A stretch of DNA of 64,000 bases from Flavobacteriia bacterium (GTDB lineage Bacteria; Bacteroidota; Bacteroidia; Flavobacteriales_D; Crocinitomicaceae): the NCBI GenBank assembly GCA_016183815.1, contig JACPDW010000018.1:62001-126000 (forward strand), written 5' to 3'. Below are positions 47,136-64,000 of this stretch, piece after piece (the first letter of the stretch is position 1; each line of letters starts with the position of its first letter). The notes beneath the pieces were generated by a model, which did not search any database, was not told the DNA's origin, and was given only the letters and a program-made list of their open reading frames with translations. The position numbers and the translations under genes are program-made.

Positions 47136-47827
47136 TGGACGTTCAAATTGAAAGTTCATGGAAAGAAATACTTGATGAAGAATTTGATAAAGAGTATTTC
47201 AAAAATCTAATCAATTTTTTAAAAGAAGAAAAAAAACATCAAATTATTTATCCAAAAGGTAAACAAATTTTTGCCGCCTTTGATTTTTGCCCATTTGATG
47301 AGGTTAAAGTGGTGTTGTTAGGTCAAGATCCATACCATGGTTTAAGACAAGCTCATGGTTTAAGTTTTTCTGTACCTTATGGAATAAAACCACCGCCCTC
47401 TTTACAAAACATTTTTAAAGAGTTGAGAAGTGACTTAAATTTCCCAATTCCTAAGCATGGTAATTTACAGGATTGGGCGAAACAGGGAGTTTTATTATTA
47501 AATGCTACTTTAACAGTTAGAGCAAATGAAGCAGGTTCTCATCAAAACAAAGGTTGGGAGCTGTTTACAGATGAAGTTATTCGTAAAATTTCAGTACACA
47601 AAAAAAATGTAGTTTTTTTATTGTGGGGGGCATACGCACAAAAAAAAGAAGGATTAATTGATTCCAAAAATCATTTGATTTTAAAAGCGGCTCATCCTTC
47701 GCCATTGGCAAGAGGTGCTTTTTTTGGATCCAAACCATTTTCACAATGCAATGAATATCTTAAAAAAATGAGTATTAAGGAGATAAATTGGAACTTATAT
47801 AGAGTTGATGAAAATTTATTTGATTAA
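47135..47827 (+). CDS. ung: Uracil-DNA glycosylase
   Basis: Removes uracil from DNA at the start of base excision repair. The 230-residue protein has the catalytic water-activating motif GQDPYH (63-68, D65) and the DNA-intercalation motif AHPSPL (near 193), plus the uracil-specificity Phe/Asn region. The last residues read VDENLFD. A degraded second copy of this 3' end lies 2.3 kb downstream (50150-50195), so the present 3' end may have arrived with the accessory DNA that follows. Confidence 0.96.
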   Translation: MDVQIESSWKEILDEEFDKEYFKNLINFLKEEKKHQIIYPKGKQIFAAFDFCPFDEVKVVLLGQDPYHGLRQAHGLSFSVPYGIKPPPSLQNIFKELRSDLNFPIPKHGNLQDWAKQGVLLLNATLTVRANEAGSHQNKGWELFTDEVIRKISVHKKNVVFLLWGAYAQKKEGLIDSKNHLILKAAHPSPLARGAFFGSKPFSQCNEYLKKMSIKEINWNLYRVDENLFD

Positions 47828-47867: not shown

Positions 47868-47897
47868 CCGCAGGATTACAATTCCAGCGGAGCTTGG
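47868..47897 (+). repeat. Hairpin repeat, copy 1
   Basis: CCGCAGGATT, a short loop, then TTCCAGCGG followed by AGCTTGG. It is one of six copies of a dispersed hairpin repeat; this one lies 40 bases after ung. Confidence 0.7.
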
Positions 47898-49100: not shown

Positions 49101-49361
49101 CTAAGAATAATGACCTTTAAGCGAATGTATTAGTAATTTATCATCAACAATTTCATAGATAATTCTATGCTCTTTATTGATTCTACGAGACCAAAGACCA
49201 GAAAGACTGTATTTTAGTACTTCTGGTTTTCCAACTCCTTCAAAAGGCTTTATCTGAATGGCTTCAATGAGTTGAGTAATTTTTTTGATAATGGATTTGT
49301 TTCCTGTTTTTACCCAAAAATTCAAATCTTCTTTGGCATCAGGTAAGAATATTACTTGCAT
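49101..49361 (-). CDS. Type II toxin, Txe/YoeB family
   Basis: An 86-residue mRNA interferase-type toxin. GVGKPEVLK, LWSRRINKEHR and the C-terminal GHYS are the YoeB signature; E47, R66 and H84 correspond to E. coli YoeB Glu46, Arg65 and His83, so the active site looks intact. It would cleave mRNA at the ribosome when freed from its antitoxin. It overlaps the antitoxin gene by 10 bases. The pair lies in the accessory insert between ung and pepP. Confidence 0.9.
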   Translation of the reverse strand: MQVIFLPDAKEDLNFWVKTGNKSIIKKITQLIEAIQIKPFEGVGKPEVLKYSLSGLWSRRINKEHRIIYEIVDDKLLIHSLKGHYS

Positions 49362-49573
49362 AAATTTTTAAGTTCGTCCATTGTCATTACAGTTCCTTTT
49401 CCTGCTTTATAATCTTTTCTGCTTTTTTCTATTTTAGCAACAAACTCTGGATTATAAGGTGTTTCTATTGGACTAACTTCAAATTTCATTTTTAGAGCCT
49501 TTACAAAAGCAATTAAAGCGTTTGTTTGCTCACTGTTAACGGTTTGAATTGTAAATAAATTTTGTGCTTTCAT
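49352..49573 (-). CDS. Antitoxin of the YoeB-type pair
   Basis: A 73-residue antitoxin, upstream of and overlapping the YoeB-like toxin. The C-terminal half (YNPEFVAKIEKSRKDYKAG, then MTMDELKNLC) is the part that would bind the toxin, while the N-terminus forms the dimer/DNA-contact region. It is related to the antitoxin at 60036-60263, which shares the EFVxxIEKSxK core. Similar DUF2683-type antitoxins are common in Bacteroidota. Confidence 0.8.
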   Translation of the reverse strand: MKAQNLFTIQTVNSEQTNALIAFVKALKMKFEVSPIETPYNPEFVAKIEKSRKDYKAGKGTVMTMDELKNLCK

Positions 49574-50149: not shown

Positions 50150-50195
50150 GTAAGGATTAATTGGAATTTATATAGAGTTGGTGAAAATTTATTTT
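50150..50195 (+). pseudogene. Degraded copy of the ung 3' end
   Basis: About 45 bases match the last codons of ung (47777-47827): TTGGAATTTATATAGAGTTG and GTGAAAATTTATTT align with few changes, still reading VGENLF and then a TGA stop (the resident gene reads VDENLFD). The pepP stop codon (50189-50191, minus strand) falls inside this copy. That suggests ung and pepP once converged here with overlapping ends, and that the 2.3 kb between is inserted DNA. Confidence 0.8.
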
Positions 50196-56283: not shown

Positions 56284-59200
56284 ATGAGTAAAAAATACAA
56301 CGAATACAAAGGTTTAAACTTAACAGAGCTAGCTAAAAATGTGGCTGACAAATGGGAAACGGAACACACCTTTGAGCAATCCATAACCACGAGAGAGGGT
56401 AAGCCGTCTTTTGTTTTTTTTGAAGGGCCTCCCTCAGCGAATGGTTTGCCTGGTATTCATCACGTAATGGCTCGTGCCTTAAAAGATATTTTTTGTCGTT
56501 ATAAAACCTTACAAGGTTTTCAAGTCAATCGTAAAGCAGGTTGGGATACCCACGGTTTGCCTGTAGAATTAGGCGTTGAAAAAGAATTAGGAATCACCAA
56601 AGAAGACATCGGAACAAAAATTTCGGTGGACGAATACAATAAAGCGTGTAAAGAAGCCGTGATGCGTTACACCGATATTTGGAATGATTTAACCAAAAAA
56701 ATGGGTTATTGGGTAGATATGGAACATCCATACATTACCTACGACTCTAAATACATGGAATCAGTTTGGTGGCTTTTGGCACAATTGTACAACAAAAACT
56801 TGATATACAAAGGTTATACCATTCAACCGTATTCACCTGCAGCAGGTACAGGGCTATCCTCTCATGAGTTAAACCAACCAGGTTGTTATCGGGACGTGAA
56901 AGACACAACAGTGGTGGCACAGTTTAGAATGAGCGACAATCAGGTTTCCCCCTTTGGAGGGGGATTAAGGGGGAGGACAGAAGAAATTCATTTCCTCGCA
57001 TGGACGACAACTCCTTGGACCTTACCCGCAAACACTGCATTGTGTGTGGGTCCAAATATTGAATATGTGTTGGTAAGAACTTTTAATCAATATACTGGAC
57101 ATCCTTTGAAAGTAATTTTAGCTAGAAATTTAGTTGATTTTCAATTTGGCAAGGGTTTTGAAAATGCTATTGTTGAACACGCAAGTTTTGCAGAGTTGAA
57201 AGACTTAGAAGAAGGTAAATTAAAACTGTATTGTGATGAAGAAAAATTTTCTAATTATAAATTAGGAGACAAAATAATACCTTATTTTATTGAGGGGAAT
57301 TGTAAAGGCTCTGATTTAGTAGGTTTAACTTATGAACAACTTTTACCTTACACTTTACCTCATGAAAATGCAGATCAAGCATTTAGAGTGATTGCAGGTG
57401 ATTTCGTAACGACAGAAGATGGAACAGGAATCGTACACATTGCTCCAACTTTTGGTTCAGACGATGCGAAAGTGGCACAAGAAGCTGGTGTTCCTGCGAT
57501 GTTGGTCTTGAATGAAAATGGCGTTGCAGTTCCAATTGTAGATTTACAAGGGAAATATCGTCCTGAAATGGGAGAATTTGCTGGAATGTACGTTAAAAAC
57601 AAATATTACAAAGAGGGTGAAGCTCCTGAAAGATCGGTAGATGTGCAAATTGCGATTAAATTAAAAGAAGAAAACAAAGCTTTTAAGGTAGAGAAATACG
57701 AACACAGTTACCCACATTGTTGGAGAACAGATAAACCCGTTTTATATTATCCGTTGGATTCTTGGTTTATCAAAGTGACCGACAAAAAAGAGCGTTTGAT
57801 GGAATTGAACAAAACCATCAATTGGAAACCAGAATCTACTGGAACGGGTCGTTTTGGAAAATGGTTGGAAAATGTAAACGATTGGAACTTATCACGTTCA
57901 CGCTATTGGGGAATTCCGATTCCAATTTGGTCCACGGAAGAAGGAGACGAACGAATAATAATCGATTCTGCCAAAACCTTAAAAGAAGAATGTGAAAAAG
58001 CAGTAAAAGCTGGTTTGATGAAAGAAAATCCATTAGCTACTTTTGATGTTAACGATATTTCGGCTGAAAACTACGCTAAAATTGATTTTCATAAAAATTA
58101 TGTGGATAATATCATACTCGTTTCCTCTACTGGAAAAGCGATGAAACGAGAATCGGATTTAATTGATGTGTGGTTTGATTCGGGTGCGATGCCTTATGCA
58201 CAATGGCATTATCCATTTGAGAATAAAGAATTAATCGAAAATAGAACAGGTTATCCTGCCGATTACATTGCAGAAGGTGTCGATCAAACAAGAGGTTGGT
58301 TTTATACCTTACATACCATTTCAACTTTGATTTTTGACTCGGTTGCATATAAAAATGTGATTTCGAATGGTTTGGTTTTGGATAAAAACGGACAAAAAAT
58401 GTCGAAACGACTTGGAAATGCAGTGGATCCATTTACAACTTTGAAAAAATATGGTCCAGATGCTACTCGTTGGTACATGATTACAAATGCGCAACCTTGG
58501 GATAACTTAAAGTTTGATTTAGAAGGAATTACCGAAGTACAACGTAAGTTTTTTGGAACCTTATATAATACCTATTCGTTTTTTGCATTGTATGCTAACA
58601 TCGATGGTTTTGCGTATCAAGAAAAAAACATCGATTTAAATGAAAGACCAGAAATTGACCGTTGGATTTTATCGAAATTGAATAGTTTGACAGAAAACGT
58701 TCAAGAAGCATTTGAAACCTACGAACCAACAAAAGCTGGACGTTTGATTCAAGATTTTGTAACCGACCAATTATCAAACTGGTATGTGCGTTTATGTCGT
58801 CGTCGTTTTTGGAAAGGCGATTACACGGAAGATAAAATTTCTGCTTATCAAACGCTTTATACCTGTTTGGAAACGGTTTCTGTTTTATCGTCACCAATCG
58901 CACCATTTTTTATGGATCAATTGTTTAATGACTTAAATAAAGTTTCAAATCGTTTTACGGTTTCGTCAGTTCATTTAGCAGATTTTCCTAAAGTGAACAA
59001 AGAAATGATTGACCTAACTTTGGAAAAACAAATGGAAATTGCACAACAAGTTTCGTCTTTGGTTTTAGGTTTACGTAAAAAAGAACGTATTCGTGTGCGT
59101 CAACCTCTTCAAAAAATAATGGTTCCAACTTTGAGTTCAGAATTTTCAACAAATATCCAACACGTAGCTTCCCTTATTTTGGCTGAAGTTAATGTGAAAG

Positions 59201-59760
59201 AATTGGAAATTTTAGAAGAAGGAAACGGAATGTTGGTGAAAAGCATCAAACCAAATTTTAAAACCATTGGACCAAAATACGGAAAACAAATGAAAGCAAT
59301 TACAGCTTTAGTTCAAGGTTTTTCGCAAGAAGACATTGCTTCAGTTGAGAGTAAAAATGGTTGGATAGGAAACATCGACGGAGAGCAAATCAACTTAGAT
59401 GTGGCTGATTTCGAAATCGTTGCACAAGACATTCCAGGTTGGTTAGTTAGTTCAGAAAATGGAATTACGGTTGCGTTAGATGTGACCATTTCCGAAGATT
59501 TAAAACAAGAAGGAATTGCCCGAGAATTGATTAATCGTGTACAAAATTTACGTAAAGAGTCTGGCTTGGAAGTAAATGATAGAATTGTACTTACTCTTGA
59601 TTGTTCAACTGAAATCCAAGAAGCGATTGCGAAAAACCAAGATTACGTGCGTAATGAAGTTTTAGCAACAAGTATTACGTTTGGTTCTTTATCGGATGCT
59701 GCTTTGTTAGTTGATTTGGTAGAAGAAGGAGATGCAAAAATTGAGTTGATGAAGGGGTGA
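56284..59760 (+). CDS. ileS: Isoleucyl-tRNA synthetase with an in-frame palindromic insertion
   Basis: Charges tRNA-Ile with isoleucine and edits misactivated valine. The 1158-residue enzyme is of the long type common in Bacteroidota. Class I motifs are GLPGIHH (HIGH, about 54-60) and KMSKR (about 705-709). Within the editing (CP1) region, residues 221-231 (VSPFGGGLRGR) are an insertion encoded by a C/G-rich hairpin, just before the conserved TEEIHFLAWTTTPWTLP. The C-terminal codons are duplicated twice downstream (62585-62693 and 63500-63703). A TATCTTTG -7 box precedes the ATG by 19 bases. Confidence 0.96.
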   Translation: MSKKYNEYKGLNLTELAKNVADKWETEHTFEQSITTREGKPSFVFFEGPPSANGLPGIHHVMARALKDIFCRYKTLQGFQVNRKAGWDTHGLPVELGVEKELGITKEDIGTKISVDEYNKACKEAVMRYTDIWNDLTKKMGYWVDMEHPYITYDSKYMESVWWLLAQLYNKNLIYKGYTIQPYSPAAGTGLSSHELNQPGCYRDVKDTTVVAQFRMSDNQVSPFGGGLRGRTEEIHFLAWTTTPWTLPANTALCVGPNIEYVLVRTFNQYTGHPLKVILARNLVDFQFGKGFENAIVEHASFAELKDLEEGKLKLYCDEEKFSNYKLGDKIIPYFIEGNCKGSDLVGLTYEQLLPYTLPHENADQAFRVIAGDFVTTEDGTGIVHIAPTFGSDDAKVAQEAGVPAMLVLNENGVAVPIVDLQGKYRPEMGEFAGMYVKNKYYKEGEAPERSVDVQIAIKLKEENKAFKVEKYEHSYPHCWRTDKPVLYYPLDSWFIKVTDKKERLMELNKTINWKPESTGTGRFGKWLENVNDWNLSRSRYWGIPIPIWSTEEGDERIIIDSAKTLKEECEKAVKAGLMKENPLATFDVNDISAENYAKIDFHKNYVDNIILVSSTGKAMKRESDLIDVWFDSGAMPYAQWHYPFENKELIENRTGYPADYIAEGVDQTRGWFYTLHTISTLIFDSVAYKNVISNGLVLDKNGQKMSKRLGNAVDPFTTLKKYGPDATRWYMITNAQPWDNLKFDLEGITEVQRKFFGTLYNTYSFFALYANIDGFAYQEKNIDLNERPEIDRWILSKLNSLTENVQEAFETYEPTKAGRLIQDFVTDQLSNWYVRLCRRRFWKGDYTEDKISAYQTLYTCLETVSVLSSPIAPFFMDQLFNDLNKVSNRFTVSSVHLADFPKVNKEMIDLTLEKQMEIAQQVSSLVLGLRKKERIRVRQPLQKIMVPTLSSEFSTNIQHVASLILAEVNVKELEILEEGNGMLVKSIKPNFKTIGPKYGKQMKAITALVQGFSQEDIASVESKNGWIGNIDGEQINLDVADFEIVAQDIPGWLVSSENGITVALDVTISEDLKQEGIARELINRVQNLRKESGLEVNDRIVLTLDCSTEIQEAIAKNQDYVRNEVLATSITFGSLSDAALLVDLVEEGDAKIELMKG
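56944..56976 (+). repeat. G/C-rich palindromic insert inside ileS
   Basis: A 33-base in-frame insert starting GTTTCCCCC and containing CCCCCT, TTGG, AGGGGG (56948-56963) as a 6-bp hairpin, followed by GGGGGAGG. Composition is wildly unlike the A/T-rich surrounding codons. It adds 11 residues (VSPFGGGLRGR) to the editing domain without breaking the frame. Confidence 0.7.
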
Positions 59761-59776
59761 GAGGATTGGTAAAAGA

Positions 59777-60057
59777 TTATTTTTCATTGTAATGTCCTAA
59801 TGCAGAAATCACTTCGACACATACGGTATCATCAATAATTTCATAAATTAATCTATCTTTCTGATTTAATCTCCTTGACCATAAACCTGAAAAAGCAAAT
59901 TTTAGTTGCTCTGGTTTTCCTGTTCCTGAATTTGGGTGAATTTCAAGTTCTTTTAAAATGGTTTCAATTTTTTTGATAGTTGATATATTACAGACTTTTT
60001 ATGTTTTGCAATGTGTTGGATTGCAATTTCAGAAATTATAAGCCTAAACTTCCCCAT
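59777..60057 (-). pseudogene. YoeB-like toxin broken by one frameshift
   Basis: Second toxin, paralogous to that at 49101. A start ATG at 60057 overlaps the antitoxin end; frame 1 reads MGKFRLIISEIAIQHIAKHKKS, then a missing base near 59990-59992 shifts into the frame that continues with TIKKIETILKELE, GTGKPEQLKFAF, LWSRRL and GHYNEK. The reading totals 281 bases where 282 would be in frame. The Txe/YoeB residues Glu, Arg and His are present in the C-terminal part, although the intervening EHR is KDR. It is inactive as read, unless this is a sequencing error. Confidence 0.75.
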
Positions 60058-60263
60058 ATATCATAGGTATCAATCGTTTTATACTGACCGTCTTTAATTT
60101 GTTTTTTGGATTTTTCAATCATTTTAACAAATTCAGCGTCATAGATAGTTTTTTCTACAATAAATTCTATAGCACTACTTTCCTTAGAAGTAGAAATTAA
60201 TAAATCCAAGATTGCTTTACCCAATTTTGTTTTTTCGTTAATTTTTAAAGTAACAACTGACAT
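60036..60263 (-). CDS. Antitoxin partner of the broken YoeB-like toxin
   Basis: A 75-residue antitoxin, related to the one at 49352 (both share AEFVKMIEKSKK-type cores; here YDAEFVKMIEKSKK). Its reading frame is intact and ends 22 bases inside the toxin start, the usual coupling of such pairs. With the toxin broken, it may persist as an anti-addiction antitoxin or be decaying. It is the first cargo pair after ileS. Confidence 0.75.
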   Translation of the reverse strand: MSVVTLKINEKTKLGKAILDLLISTSKESSAIEFIVEKTIYDAEFVKMIEKSKKQIKDGQYKTIDTYDIWGSLGL

Positions 60264-60299
60264 TTCAATTAATTTTTAAGTAAAATTATGAAAATTTAT

Positions 60300-60404
60300 T
60301 CAATTTATCAAATTTTTCAACAAAGCCACCTCATCTTCCAAAACCTGAATTGTTTTTTCGTATTGTTGAATTAATTTTTCCGGTAGGTTGATGTGCTTAA
60401 ACAC
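60300..60404 (-). pseudogene. Remnant of a regulator C-terminus (coiled coil)
   Basis: A 34-residue reading frame just upstream of the antitoxin: INLPEKLIQQYEKTIQVLED and VALLKNLIN, with a leucine-rich heptad pattern. It resembles the C-terminal coiled coil of phage-type or XRE regulators but has no HTH upstream (a stop lies before it). A regulator adjacent to the toxin-antitoxin pair, as at 49586, may have been lost. Low certainty. Confidence 0.35.
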
Positions 60405-60436
60405 AAAATTATTTGTAATTTTATACTAAAAATCTG

Positions 60437-61198
60437 ATGGATGAATTTAACACACATCATGAAAAAGCATATAAGTTTTTAAAATTTAAGGATTTAGAGA
60501 AAATAATTACTTCTAAAAAAATTAGATTTTCCCAACCAAAAACATTTAATGATCCCTTAGATTGCAGTGTTTTATTAGGAAACTTAGATTGGAATAGATA
60601 TTCTCAAATGGGATTAAAATCTTTTAAGGAGGCAACTGTTAACACGTACAAACATTTTGATTCTTTTTATTTGACTTGTTTCTCAAAAGAGTATAATTCA
60701 GAATTAATGTGGGCACATTATGGCTTAAATAATACACAAGTTTGTTTTGAAATTGATTTTTCTGCAACTCCCTATTGTGGTAATCCTTCTTCTGTTACTT
60801 ATAAAGATTACAAAGATTTTTGTCTTTTTAGAGATTCTTTACATGAAATAGGAGCTCATGAAAAAGGTATATTTCTAGCGACAACAAAACTAAAGAACTG
60901 GGAGTACGAAAAAGAAGTCAGATTGATTTTTGATACAGAATTTAAAAAAGAATATGAAAATAATGGCTTCATTTTAAGTGAAGATAATAACCATATTTTT
61001 GTTAACTTTGATATTAATTCTATTTCCAAGATTATTTTTGGTGTAAATTCGGATGAAGTTGATGAAATGGTAATGATTGCTTTGACAAATTTTAATAAGA
61101 TGAATGTAAAGTTTGAAAAAATGATTATTGATCCGAGAGATTTAACTTTAAAATCAATGAGCTACTTTGAGTATATACTTGACAAACCATTTAAATAG
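60437..61198 (+). CDS. DUF2971 family protein
   Basis: A 253-residue protein with the DUF2971 layout: KAYKFLKFKDLEKIITSKKIRFSQPKTFNDPLD at the start (in parts), YLTCFSKEYNSELMWAHYG in the middle, and KEVRLIFD before the end. Function of the family is unknown; members often occur near phage-defence and restriction genes. It ends one base before the start of the GIY-YIG gene, so the two form an operon. Cargo of the ileS-side accessory region. Confidence 0.78.
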   Translation: MDEFNTHHEKAYKFLKFKDLEKIITSKKIRFSQPKTFNDPLDCSVLLGNLDWNRYSQMGLKSFKEATVNTYKHFDSFYLTCFSKEYNSELMWAHYGLNNTQVCFEIDFSATPYCGNPSSVTYKDYKDFCLFRDSLHEIGAHEKGIFLATTKLKNWEYEKEVRLIFDTEFKKEYENNGFILSEDNNHIFVNFDINSISKIIFGVNSDEVDEMVMIALTNFNKMNVKFEKMIIDPRDLTLKSMSYFEYILDKPFK

Positions 61199-61199
61199 T

Positions 61200-62456
61200 A
61201 TGAAACATTTTAAATTTGAAGTAAACCAAAAGGGATAGATTTTCAATTTCAAATTTGATAAAAATGGTTATCAAGGAAATGAAATTTACAATGTAATATC
61301 AATAAAAGACATTGAATTTTATTTGATAGATATTTTAGAAAATACAAATTTGGTTAACAATCCTTCAATAAATATTTTTGATATTCACAGCATTCGTATT
61401 GGATATTGGTCAAAGAAAGATGGTGATTATTGTGAAGTTGGTGATGAGATTTGCAATCTAAAGATTGAAACGCTAGGAACAAAATGGATTGAAATAAAAG
61501 CAAAAGAAACAGGAATTTTAAGAACATATTTTGAACGTGATGAAAAATTAATCGACGGGTGCAAAATTTTTGATATTGAATTAGCAGAATCAAAATTCAG
61601 ACTTTTTAACACTCCAATTTTTGAGATTGATAAGTTCAATAAATCTGAAATTTTAAAATGGAAAAGGGTTGGAGGAAACAATTATGATAATTCAATGTCA
61701 ATGTTTAATGGATTCCTATTGACCTTCATTGGGGATAAAAGATTGTTTTTCACTTTGAATAATAAAAATGGCTTGGACTTTTTGGTATTAAATTTCCCAA
61801 AAAAAGATTTTGATATAAAAAATGGAGATAAGTTTCAAATTTTACTTGAAAATGATGAGGTTTTGAATTTTATTTTTCAACAAAATTCAAATTTATTACA
61901 TAAGGATATTAACTACGGCAATATTTTAGAAAACAAAATTCAAATTCTATATTCAGATTTAATAAAACTGTCAAACCAGAAAGTGGAAAATTGGAAATTA
62001 ACATTTCAAACAGGTCAAGAAATTTCTGGAATAAGGCCCTTTAGAGAAGATCACGCTTATAAGACTTTTGATAAATTACAAGAAATGATTCAACTCCTTG
62101 CGAACGATTATTTGGTTGAAGTTAAAAAATTAAAAGAACACAAACCTTTATATGTGTACGATGAAATTGTAAACGAAAGCCTTACTCAAGAAATTTGTTA
62201 TTTATATTTAATGATTGACAAAACTAACGGTTTCCATAAAATAGGAATTTCTAATAAGCCAGAATATAGAGAAAAAACACTGCAAAGTGAAAAGCCTACA
62301 ATTGAATTAATTGCCTCAAAAAAATTTCCAAGCCGACAAATAGCATTAAGCATTGAAAAAGCACTTCATTTTACATTTCGAGATAAAAACATCAGAGGTG
62401 AATGGTTTAATTTATTGCAAAAAGACGTTCAAGAAATTATAGATACTTTAAATTAA
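61200..62456 (+). pseudogene. GIY-YIG (T5orf172-like) protein with lipoyl-like N-domain, interrupted by an early stop
   Basis: The natural start is the ATG at 61200, directly after the DUF2971 stop: MKHFKFEVNQKG, then an in-frame TAG at 61236-61238, after which the same frame stays open to 62456 (IFNFKFDKNGYQGNEIYNV...). No other good start exists; a TTG at 61323 is the only early alternative. After the stop come a biotinyl/lipoyl-like domain (GDEICNLKIET...KAKETGILR, with a Lys in the hybrid-loop region), a central region of unknown fold, and a C-terminal GIY-YIG/T5orf172 domain (CYLYLMID...HKIGISNKPEYRE...IRGEWFNL). Either a recent nonsense mutation or readthrough is implied. Confidence 0.7.
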
Positions 62457-62462
62457 TTACAA

Positions 62463-62520
62463 AACCCGCTCAGTGGATTTATCTTCGTTGAGAACGCTTC
62501 GCTAGGTTGTAATCCTGCTG
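62463..62520 (+). repeat. Hairpin repeat, copy 5, interrupted by a 27-base insert
   Basis: CCCGCTCAG, TGGATTT, then about 27 extra bases, then TGTAATCCTGCTG. It matches copy 6 except for the insert and a base deletion. It starts the second ileS tail unit. Confidence 0.6.
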
Positions 62521-62584
62521 TTTTATATTTTTTTACTTTAAGATTATATCTTGTAAATACCTATTCGCAATCAATAACTAGTAT

Positions 62585-62693
62585 AGACTCTGGTTTAGAT
62601 GTATAGCATAAAATTTTGCTAAGTGTTCAATGTTCTGATGAAATACAACAAGCCATCGCTAAAAACCAAGATTATATATGTAATTAATTTTAA
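62585..62693 (+). pseudogene. Degraded ileS 3' end, tail copy 2
   Basis: About 106 bases align with resident ileS 59558-59665: encoded SVQCSDEIQQAIAKNQDYIC is recognisable against TLDCSTEIQEAIAKNQDYVR, but stops (TAG, TAA) interrupt it. The core AAAAACCAAGATTA is identical to the resident gene. It is preceded by CCTATTCGCAATCAATA, also found before tail copy 3. Confidence 0.8.
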
Positions 62694-62822
62694 GTAAATT
62701 GTAATCAATAATGCCCAATCTTCCAAAGATTACATCAAGTGATAGTCTAAAGACAATAAACTACCAAACCTTAAATTTTTCATTAATTTTCAGCAGATTT
62801 TGTTTAATTGCCATTTTTAATG

Positions 62823-62830
62823 TAAATTTG
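62823..62830 (+). promoter_or_regulatory. -7 box of the third toxin-antitoxin pair
   Basis: TAAATTTG, exact TAnnTTTG, 17 bases before the antitoxin ATG. The 390-base gap 62457-62846 also contains hairpin repeat 5 and ileS tail copy 2. Confidence 0.5.
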
Positions 62831-62846
62831 TGTAAAATTTGAAAAC

Positions 62847-63053
62847 ATGAGGCTTTTATTAGATATTAATGACAATAAAGCAATTTATTTATTAGAAATC
62901 TTAAAAAGTTTACCTTTTGTAAAAACTAAACTTATTTCAAATGAAAAGGCAATTTTGATTGAAGATTTAAAGGAATCAATTAATGAATTAAATTTAATAA
63001 AAGAAGGTAAACTTAAAGGTATTTCTGCAAAGGATTTATTGGATGAGTTATGA
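62847..63053 (+). CDS. Antitoxin of the RelE/ParE-like pair
   Basis: A 68-residue antitoxin. The N-terminal part reads LLLDINDNKAIYLLEILKSLP; the C-terminal EGKLKGISAKDLLDEL is the typical toxin-binding tail. It overlaps the toxin by 11 bases. Located between two degraded ileS tails, so it arrived as separate cargo from the YoeB-like pairs. It has its own -7 box. Confidence 0.78.
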   Translation: MRLLLDINDNKAIYLLEILKSLPFVKTKLISNEKAILIEDLKESINELNLIKEGKLKGISAKDLLDEL

Positions 63054-63372
63054 AGTAATAGCTATCCCAAAATTTAGGAAAGAAATTAAAAGACTCTCTA
63101 AAAAGTATCCCTCTTTTAAACGAGACTTTTCTACTTTTATAGAGGAAATTACAGAAAATCCAATTCAAGGTACTCAACTTGGAAATAACTGTTATAAATT
63201 AAGGCTTTCGATTAAAAGTAAAGGAAAAGGTAAAAGTGCTGGTGCAAGAATTATAATAAATGTTGTTATTTCTAAATCAAAAGTTTATTTGCTTTCAATT
63301 TATGACAAATCTGAAAAAGAAAATCTTTCTAATAAAGAATTAAATGATTTACTTAGATTAATACAATCTTAG
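63043..63372 (+). CDS. RelE/ParE superfamily toxin
   Basis: A 109-residue toxin of the RelE/ParE fold: YEVIAIPKFRKEIKRLSKKYPS at the N-terminus, GTQLGNNCYKLRLSIKSKGKGKS in the centre and VYLLSIYDKSEKENLS near the end. It would inhibit translation or gyrase; which of the two cannot be told from the sequence. It overlaps the antitoxin by 11 bases and the frame is intact. Confidence 0.82.
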   Translation: MSYEVIAIPKFRKEIKRLSKKYPSFKRDFSTFIEEITENPIQGTQLGNNCYKLRLSIKSKGKGKSAGARIIINVVISKSKVYLLSIYDKSEKENLSNKELNDLLRLIQS

Positions 63373-63407
63373 TTTATTCTTTTTCGATAAAATATCCTTC
63401 CCGACTA

Positions 63408-63435
63408 CCCGCTCAGCTGGATTTGTAATCTTGCT
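63408..63435 (+). repeat. Hairpin repeat, copy 6
   Basis: CCCGCTCAGCTGGATTTG then TAATCTTGCTG: the core GGATTTGTAATC hairpin seen in copy 3, here in the same orientation as copy 5. Spacer 63373-63833 has no full gene; this repeat and ileS tail copy 3 fill most of it. Confidence 0.65.
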
Positions 63436-63499
63436 GTTTTAAATTGATACATCGAAATTCTATCTTGAAAAGACCTATTCGCAATCAATATTTTATAAT

Positions 63500-63703
63500 G
63501 ACTCTGGTTTAGAGGTAACGGATAAAATTGTGCTTTCTGTTCAATGTTCAGATGAAATCCAACAAGCTCTTGCGAAAAACCAAGATTACGTGTGTAATGA
63601 GGTGTTGGCAACTAGCATCACCTTTGGTTCTTTATCAGATGCTTCTTTGTTGCTTGATTTGGTGGAAGAAGGAGATGCAAAAATTGAGTTGGTGAAGGTG
63701 TGA
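63500..63703 (+). pseudogene. Displaced ileS 3' end, tail copy 3
   Basis: About 204 bases align with the last 203 bases of ileS, including its stop and a following GAGAGG. It reads on without a stop for 67 codons as SGLEVTDKIVLSVQCSDEIQ, then AKNQDYVCNEVLATSITFGS and DLVEEGDAKIELVKV, so most changes are silent or conservative. It resembles tail copy 2 more than the resident gene. It looks like a once-functional ileS end (perhaps the ancestral one), now separated from the rest of the gene. Confidence 0.85.
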
Positions 63704-63833
63704 GAGGTTTGTTGGGTTTACAGAAGCTGAATACACATGAAGGAATCGTGCGAAAACAAGGTGGATGATGAAAAAAATTCTCAAAAGAAAAAAATAGTTT
63801 AAATAAGTTTGTAAAAATTTGTATCTTTACATT

Positions 63834-64000
63834 ATGTTAAGTCCTAAACAAATAGCAATTATAAAATCTATTACAAGTAGGTTGAATCCCTTATTTGTTG
63901 GCGTTTATGGTTCTTATGCCAGAGGGGAAGAAAAGCCAGATAGTGATTTAGATGTTTTGATAGATGTCAGAAATAAGACCAATTTATTAGATTTAATAGA
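63834..64000 (+). CDS. MNT-type minimal nucleotidyltransferase (3' end outside window)
   Basis: First 55 residues of a nucleotidyltransferase antitoxin. The polymerase-beta motif G26-S27-Y-A-R-G with downstream SDLDVLI (D38, D40) is complete. Such MNT proteins pair with HEPN toxins (MntA/HepT-type systems), which they inactivate by adenylylation; the partner would lie beyond the window edge. A -7-like TATCTTTA is about 10 bases upstream. It would be the fourth toxin-antitoxin gene set in 16 kb. Confidence 0.8.
   Translation, partial: MLSPKQIAIIKSITSRLNPLFVGVYGSYARGEEKPDSDLDVLIDVRNKTNLLDLI

Follow-up and report, generated by a model that had tools for sequence, protein, structure and literature searches.

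The stretch of DNA analysed here, 64,000 nucleotides (nt) long and called the window below, comes from the genome of a Flavobacteriia bacterium of the family Crocinitomicaceae (assembly GCA_016183815.1; 3.24 Mb in 44 contigs) and covers positions 62,001 to 126,000 of contig JACPDW010000018.1 (C25:62001-126000). Near its right end lies ileS, the gene for isoleucyl-tRNA synthetase (IleRS), and the 3' end of this gene recurs downstream of it: five ileS ends, the resident one and four displaced copies, all lie within 6.1 kb of one contig and alternate with unrelated modules, each displaced end being followed by a different two-gene module of toxin-antitoxin (TA) or TA-like kind. TA pairs behind essential genes seem here to have been brought in along with a new version of the final part of the host gene, the old ends being stranded downstream. 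An earlier reading made from the sequence only had counted two displaced ends, a degraded copy 2 and a copy 3 still legible as protein. Both are real (Table 1; ileS-end matches in the self-comparison of the window have E-values of 1e-62, 3e-38 and 1e-11), but a genome search brought the total to four, two of them beyond the end of the window. Copy 3 was rightly called legible, with 67 stop-free codons, and copy 2 degraded: its protein-level match contains two stops and covers only residues 12-45 of the 78 of the query, the 3' half being lost.

The module behind the resident end consists of a DUF2683 antitoxin, a frame-broken YoeB-like toxin, a DUF2971-like protein and a GIY-YIG-like protein. 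The broken TA pair listed previously at this place is thus present and can be specified as the first two of these genes, on the minus strand; the GIY-YIG assignment is backed by two Pfam families, and the DUF2971 label is weakened to DUF2971-like, its Pfam match staying below the cut-off. Behind copy 2 stands a RelE-type toxin whose partner matches no Pfam family, so that of the supposed RelE/ParE pair the toxin is backed by a profile and the partner is an antitoxin by position. Copy 3 is followed by an MNT/HepT pair, copy 4 by a DUF433 protein and a DUF5615-like protein (match limited to the first 41 residues), which we take to be a TA pair, and copy 5 by a YefM/YoeB pair. Product and family names given without a profile family call were judged by eye. 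For the region of the RelE-type toxin there are four plasmid matches (three from Empedobacter, one from Aureibacter; 66-70% over 27-28% of the query) and no match among phages.

Table 1. Features of the ileS array and of the ung locus (positions in the window; window-equivalent positions beyond its end).
Feature	Position	Strand	Evidence
ung 3' end, resident, recurring part	47782-47821	+	ung by TIGR00628
YoeB toxin and DUF2683 antitoxin behind ung	49101-49573	-	PF06769, PF10884
Displaced ung end	50155-50194	+	92.5% over 40 nt
ileS, resident gene	56284-59760	+	TIGR00392, E 6.7e-297
Resident ileS 3' end, recurring part	59553-59768	+	direct repeat
Frame-broken YoeB-like toxin	59786-59998	-	tblastn with the YoeB of window 49101-49361
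DUF2683 antitoxin	60036-60263	-	PF10884, E 3.7e-12
DUF2971-like protein, candidate defence protein	60437-61198	+	PF11185, 19.4 bits (below cut-off 22); PADLOC PDC-S31, E 1.4e-24
GIY-YIG-like protein	61323-62456	+	PF13455, E 4.9e-10; PF10544, E 6.1e-8
REP-like palindrome, interrupted	62465-62530	+	
Flank common with copy 3, includes CCTATTCGCAATCAATA	62531-62580	+	
Displaced ileS end, copy 2, decayed	62581-62697	+	73% identity over 117 nt to 59552-59668
Partner ORF of RelE-type toxin (antitoxin by position only)	62847-63053	+	no Pfam match at E 0.01
RelE-type toxin	63043-63372	+	PF06296, E 6.1e-9
REP-like palindrome	63407-63441	+	
Flank common with copy 2	63442-63495	+	
Displaced ileS end, copy 3, open frame	63496-63711	+	84% identity over 216 nt to 59553-59768
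MNT/HepT pair, start	63834-64000, continuing past the window to 64455	+	PF01909 and PF01934
Displaced ileS end, copy 4, beyond window end	64557-64682		genome search; 83% identity to the resident end over 126 nt
Displaced ileS end, copy 5, beyond window end	65532-65627		genome search; 83% identity to the resident end over 96 nt

Copies 2 and 3 begin at the same base of ileS, and the DNA before them is also common to both, comprising a palindrome like the repetitive extragenic palindromic (REP) sequences and about 50-60 nt with CCTATTCGCAATCAATA; in all, 178 nt including the right part of the palindrome are in common at 80%. Compared with the copy 2 region, the flank and tail start of copy 3 score 107, the best of 300 shuffles reaching 21, and in a search of the genome the part of the flank with CCTATTCGCAATCAATA occurs before these two copies only. 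A related flank also stands after the last module (matched in score by 1 of 300 shuffles). Upstream of copies 4 and 5, whose starts are decayed, the DNA is not like the copy 3 flank (score reached in 42 and 24 of 300 shuffles, respectively), and after the last pair there is no sixth ileS end (210 of 300 shuffles reach the score). The common hairpin and CCTATTCGCAATCAATA before copies 2 and 3, which the sequence-only reading had pointed out, are therefore borne out, but the hairpin is a REP-like palindrome scattered over the genome: it is visible by eye at about 16 of 20 loci inspected (from a search that gave 21 matches with E-values as high as 1, those at the weak end being chance), one pair flanking a Y1_Tnp gene (PF01797, E 3.3e-5; locus L065), and was rejected as a hallmark of the ileS array. 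Gene ends and REPs are the repeats observed between the array units. Short likenesses that might be microhomology of 3-10 bp were seen by eye at the joints in the alignments of displaced ends. REP-like palindromes of the CCGCTGGATTTGTAATCC(T)GCGG group also cluster near TA and accessory genes, at window positions 47873, 48034, 48966 and 50077 and in loci L059, L060 and L065. Within ileS itself a GC-rich palindromic stretch, CCCCCTTTGGAGGGGGATTAAGGGGGAGG (QVSPFGGGLRGRTEE), lies in frame at 56944-56985 and by eye resembles an inserted repeat.

The same layout was found by self-comparison of genome stretches at three further genes, with repeats whose length varies between host genes. A methylmalonyl-CoA mutase gene (contig C13, minus strand) has a second, 114-nt end at 87% behind an NTase_sub_bind and Polbeta pair, i.e. 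an MNT/HepT-like pair; mnmE (C16) has a 51-nt end at 92% behind an insert of about 1.4 kb whose TA-like pair consists of a helix-turn-helix protein and a ParE-like toxin (21.1 bits against a cut-off of 23), the junction carrying a REP; and between the two 40-nt ends of ung, inside the window, lie the YoeB/DUF2683 pair, other open reading frames (ORFs) and REPs. The resident frames of ileS, the mutase, mnmE and ung all run intact to their own stops. A second end of mnmE, and likewise one of the mutase, turned up in a single genome, this one, of the 15 searched in each case; the displaced ung copy was too short for such a search. Probably the layout extends to arrays whose host gene is gone, cases that are less certain: at C16:193.7-195.8 kb a C-terminal end EIGN(V/L)REKFVVE stands in three copies between small modules, C17 holds two end pairs, which enclose a PF05016 toxin and an AbiEi-like gene, respectively, and C13 an end pair ending in VGEY around a nucleotidyltransferase-like gene, none with an intact host gene. 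Ten places of the toxin families PF05016 and PF01934 divide into three behind the displaced end of a known gene (ung, ileS or the mutase), three enclosed by direct repeats of another kind, a REP pair in one case, and four with no direct repeats around them. In the stretch C16:191000-200500, within which the first of these less certain arrays lies, a C-terminal end of type IX secretion system (T9SS)-like kind alternates, together with a terminator, with small modules and has no resident gene. Contig C16 further contains, at 300506-313115, a cluster enclosed by 95-nt repeats at 81% that by eye looks defence-related, with SIR2-like and HerA-like genes.

Evidence on the direction of these events comes from the mutase. 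In a genome of the same genus (G004) an intact mutase gene is followed by a short ORF containing MTTLTLKINEK and by a second small ORF, which by eye are a DUF2683-like antitoxin (without Pfam match at E 0.001) and a RelE/YafQ-like toxin. The DNA after the displaced mutase end of our genome matches the DNA behind this intact gene (79% over 218 nt, E 2e-48), and for the DNA behind the resident mutase end the best E-value against the same region is only 0.028. The G004 locus is the pre-insertion site for the mutase unit. Because only its downstream DNA matches that behind the intact gene, the displaced end is most simply taken as the native one, and the resident end would have come with the MNT/HepT-like pair. 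A second joint without long homology, with native DNA resuming after it, was seen for the mutase only.

These observations suggest the following course of events. A related bacterium would supply DNA in which the 3' part of a conserved gene is followed by a TA pair, and this DNA would recombine with the resident gene; on one side an ordinary homologous crossover would give the gene a working foreign end, and the other side would join within the last 40-200 nt of the gene, either by illegitimate recombination or through a circle with a trimmed gene end. With the second joint inside the gene, the native end would be left stranded downstream of the TA pair, which may then persist by addiction. 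At ileS, if it followed the route of the mutase, entry would have been repeated, and once two tails were present further units could have entered by tail-to-tail recombination, which would account for the junction common to copies 2 and 3. Entry by homology at one end does leave stranded or duplicated gene ends in Escherichia coli (PMC3240628; comparisons with this and the other works cited refer to excerpts of them): among 60 clones, most carried, after the insert, a duplicated portion of the gene end (109-950 bp), read as the single crossover of a circle with a trimmed end, and four arose by homology-facilitated illegitimate recombination (HFIR). Either process would leave the layout observed here, although the E. 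coli case is a laboratory construct with lacZ and no natural TA unit. Whether such homology-anchored capture of TA modules explains the stranded gene ends is, in our judgement, evenly balanced.

A rival account is the local duplication of the gene end, for example as a very long target-site duplication at the insertion of a TA module, with no imported end. Under a null model in which the stranded copy freely gathers nonsynonymous changes (3000 simulations), it is rejected for the mutase (8 synonymous and 1 nonsynonymous difference; 0 of 3000 simulations) and for mnmE (3 and 0; P 0.004); the old and new ends of the mutase, and those of mnmE, have separate coding histories. Target-site duplications are also usually far shorter than the 40-216 nt of these repeats. 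We regard local duplication as improbable overall, and the earlier proposal that incoming DNA brought its own gene end is upheld at the mutase by its pre-insertion site and by this test, the latter likewise at mnmE, but unproven for ileS.

Several results weigh against homology-anchored capture, some of them in favour of duplication. The same test fails to reject local duplication for ileS copy 3 (15 synonymous, 17 nonsynonymous; P 0.15), for VGEY (4 and 3; P 0.27) and for ung (1 and 4; P 0.97). Third codon positions hold 34 of the 56 differences over five end pairs; tested against 1/3 (p 2.5e-5) this share speaks for capture, but against 1/2, the value nearer to what local duplication would give, p is 0.07. 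We found no donor of the ileS end, and no empty ileS site, proposed as a check in the sequence-only reading, was found among 20 relatives. HFIR usually deletes host DNA (PMC3240628). The exact identity of the junction of copies 2 and 3 would be simpler under a site-specific recombinase. Finally, copy 2 is more decayed than copy 3. Had the old end been pushed downstream each time, as first supposed, copy 2 would be the youngest displaced end, and a strict newest-first order fails because of this decay; the simplest repair would be that module 1, copy 2 and module 2 entered as one block, copy 3 having been the working end until then.

For ileS the distances allow, and do not prove, import from a close relative. 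The resident end and copy 3 differ by a dN (nonsynonymous distance) of 0.11 and a dS (synonymous distance) of 0.47, and against 15 relatives dS is at least 0.87 where computable, being saturated in 6 of the 15 for the resident end and in 7 for copy 3. Polarisation against six relatives assigns 6 nonsynonymous and 4 synonymous changes to the resident side, 8 and 7 to the copy 3 side, and leaves 7 unassigned; such similar branches would also suit local duplication. Mobile DNA carrying an ileS end was not found: viral contigs gave 29 pattern stretches of which none was confirmed, and there was no match in plasmids or phages. The one viral contig with the exact 18-mer was rejected as source, having beyond the 18-mer only chance words in common with the array.

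The main rival to homology-anchored capture is that integrases targeted these genes, a possibility we hold to be rather unlikely. The displaced tails would then be attachment-site repeats and the element would have supplied the replacement end, the integrases being lost or acting from elsewhere, so that the array would consist of tandem remnants like cis-mobilizable elements (CIME). The common start and flank of copies 2 and 3 fit this well, there are familiar examples of elements at gene 3' ends, such as Salmonella genomic island 1 (SGI1) at trmE, the same gene as mnmE (PMC8409611), and tandem islands at ssrA include integrase-free members (PMC3146451). However, the ileS array contains no integrase, in agreement with the initial impression of the site: there are seven PF00589 matches genome-wide, the one on this contig about 73 kb away, and serine recombinases were not searched for genome-wide. 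The units measure only about 1-3 kb, and several genes with different repeat lengths would each require a recombinase.

The palindromes raise a third explanation, in which REP/Y1-transposase activity moved the TA modules and left palindromes at their far ends, the gene ends being by-products. REPs do stand before copies 2 and 3 and before the mnmE and ung tails, and a REP pair surrounds the Y1_Tnp gene mentioned above; yet the mutase junction has no REP, REPs also occur at places without displaced ends, and the scheme would leave unexplained why the opposite side has a matching gene end. We consider this very improbable.

Searches for duplicated ileS 3' ends in other flavobacterial genomes, which had also been proposed as a check, were negative throughout (the sets of genomes and loci overlap). 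The ileS end is detected at E 0.001 in 216 of 240 family genomes, this one included, with five matches here, two in genome G080 and one in each of the other 214; none of the 239 other genomes, 24 of which lack any ileS-end match, shows a displaced end. The two matches of G080 were rejected as such: they belong to long ileS frames, of 1203 and 1153 aa, on two separate contigs (C188 and C210), either a true second ileS or contamination. The 38 genomes reached via GTDB loci have one ileS end each (at least 13 of them overlap the 240-genome set by contig place). No second end was found in 79 GTDB loci with downstream DNA (L094 was left out of 80; up to 9 kb each, 601,607 bases in total), nor in the loci of the 20 relatives, two of which had short matches, 20-25 nt long and with E-values no better than 0.005. 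Different genes follow ileS in these 20 related species; in two relatives profiled, the gene is of an AAA/TA-like or the DUF4143 family. No relative has the right neighbour of the array behind ileS (loci L059-L165), and the search with modules and neighbours gave one weak HepT match. Loci L066, L070, L072, L074 and L077 have AAA_21/DUF4143 or, by eye, RhuM/ORF6N-like genes directly behind ileS and no second ileS end.

For displaced ends in general we counted direct repeats at E 1e-6 in which one copy covers the stop codon of an ORF no shorter than 100 aa and the other lies mostly outside ORFs. In 1.10 Mb of this genome (855 ORFs) four convincing host genes emerged, namely ileS, ung, mnmE and the mutase; there was none in G002 (400 kb), G003 or G005 (200 kb each) and one in the sister species G001 of the same genus (400 kb; locus L336). 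More than one species therefore shows the phenomenon. The data do not establish an excess in this genome: the difference (4 of 855 ORFs against 1 of 995 in relatives) has P 0.14 in a Fisher test, and sampling was not blind, since cases on C25, C16 and C13 were known before counting. In the G001 locus (C14, 2035-4067) a gene end NEKDxHFQxLA... with two further copies lies beside a by-eye SIR2-like gene, and elsewhere in that genome (L334, C12, 16875-19012) 150-nt non-coding repeats (74%) surround what by eye is an AbiEi/AbiEii-like pair. A scan of 115 loci (1176 ORFs) gave 13 3' rows near a stop and 4 5' rows near a start. Rejected from the counts were L160, a pair of paralogous genes, and L078, L101 and L157, by eye whole-gene duplications; also left out were L104 (67% over 245 nt), L065 (by eye an Rhs-like repeat), L059 (a small ORF), a 29-nt match, eight 5' rows on C16 (several in a T9SS-like array), a whole-gene row in G002, a 929-aa gene at C16:300506 (the repeat spanning its end and the start of the next gene), an adhesin row (74471) and a REP row on C40. 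Rows of the 5' type numbered three on C16, one in G002 and one in G001.

The closest published parallel we found is the orphan immunity arrays of the type VI secretion system (T6SS) in Vibrio cholerae (PMC5361080), where entry likewise occurs at a conserved gene, old material including a shifted 3' end is moved downstream, and units stack; HFIR has been proposed for these stacked immunity genes, in one case with a shifted 3' end of the effector gene. The gene changed there is the effector itself, whereas here a housekeeping gene keeps its function and the cargo is TA. The minimal mobile elements of Neisseria (PMC3082526) also place varied whole-gene cassettes behind a conserved gene by homologous recombination, but are defined by two conserved flanking genes and, in the excerpts, show neither displaced ends nor stacking; our comparison with them used the ileS neighbours of 20 related species. 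CIME accretion and the tandem ssrA islands (PMC3146451) have tandem units separated by gene 3'-end repeats, some integrase-free, but with 20-bp repeats, large size and a serine recombinase in 16 islands, against a coding end of 96-216 nt and no recombinase here. SGI1-type islands (PMC8409611) have the mnmE host gene in common with our genome, but are large integrative mobilizable elements. Searches of open-licence literature brought up no description of TA capture with displaced ends of housekeeping genes; as evidence that none exists this is weak.

The layout described here suggests a way in which TA pairs could enter chromosomes and spread in the absence of mobile-element machinery of their own. 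Tentatively, and with more doubt than confidence, we propose that in this genus TA pairs travel recombinase-free as gene-end cassettes, the 3' end of the host gene serving as homology arm, so that the gene would be restored, the old end stranded, and arrays formed at favoured genes such as ileS. The stranded ends are scars that record entries, with silent sites giving direction and donor distance. Because any genome can be surveyed for them and their number taken, homology-anchored gain of TA pairs is open to direct testing, and for one locus, the mutase, the pre-insertion site is already available from a sister species. A foreign origin may thus also apply to the C-terminal residues of an essential protein such as IleRS.

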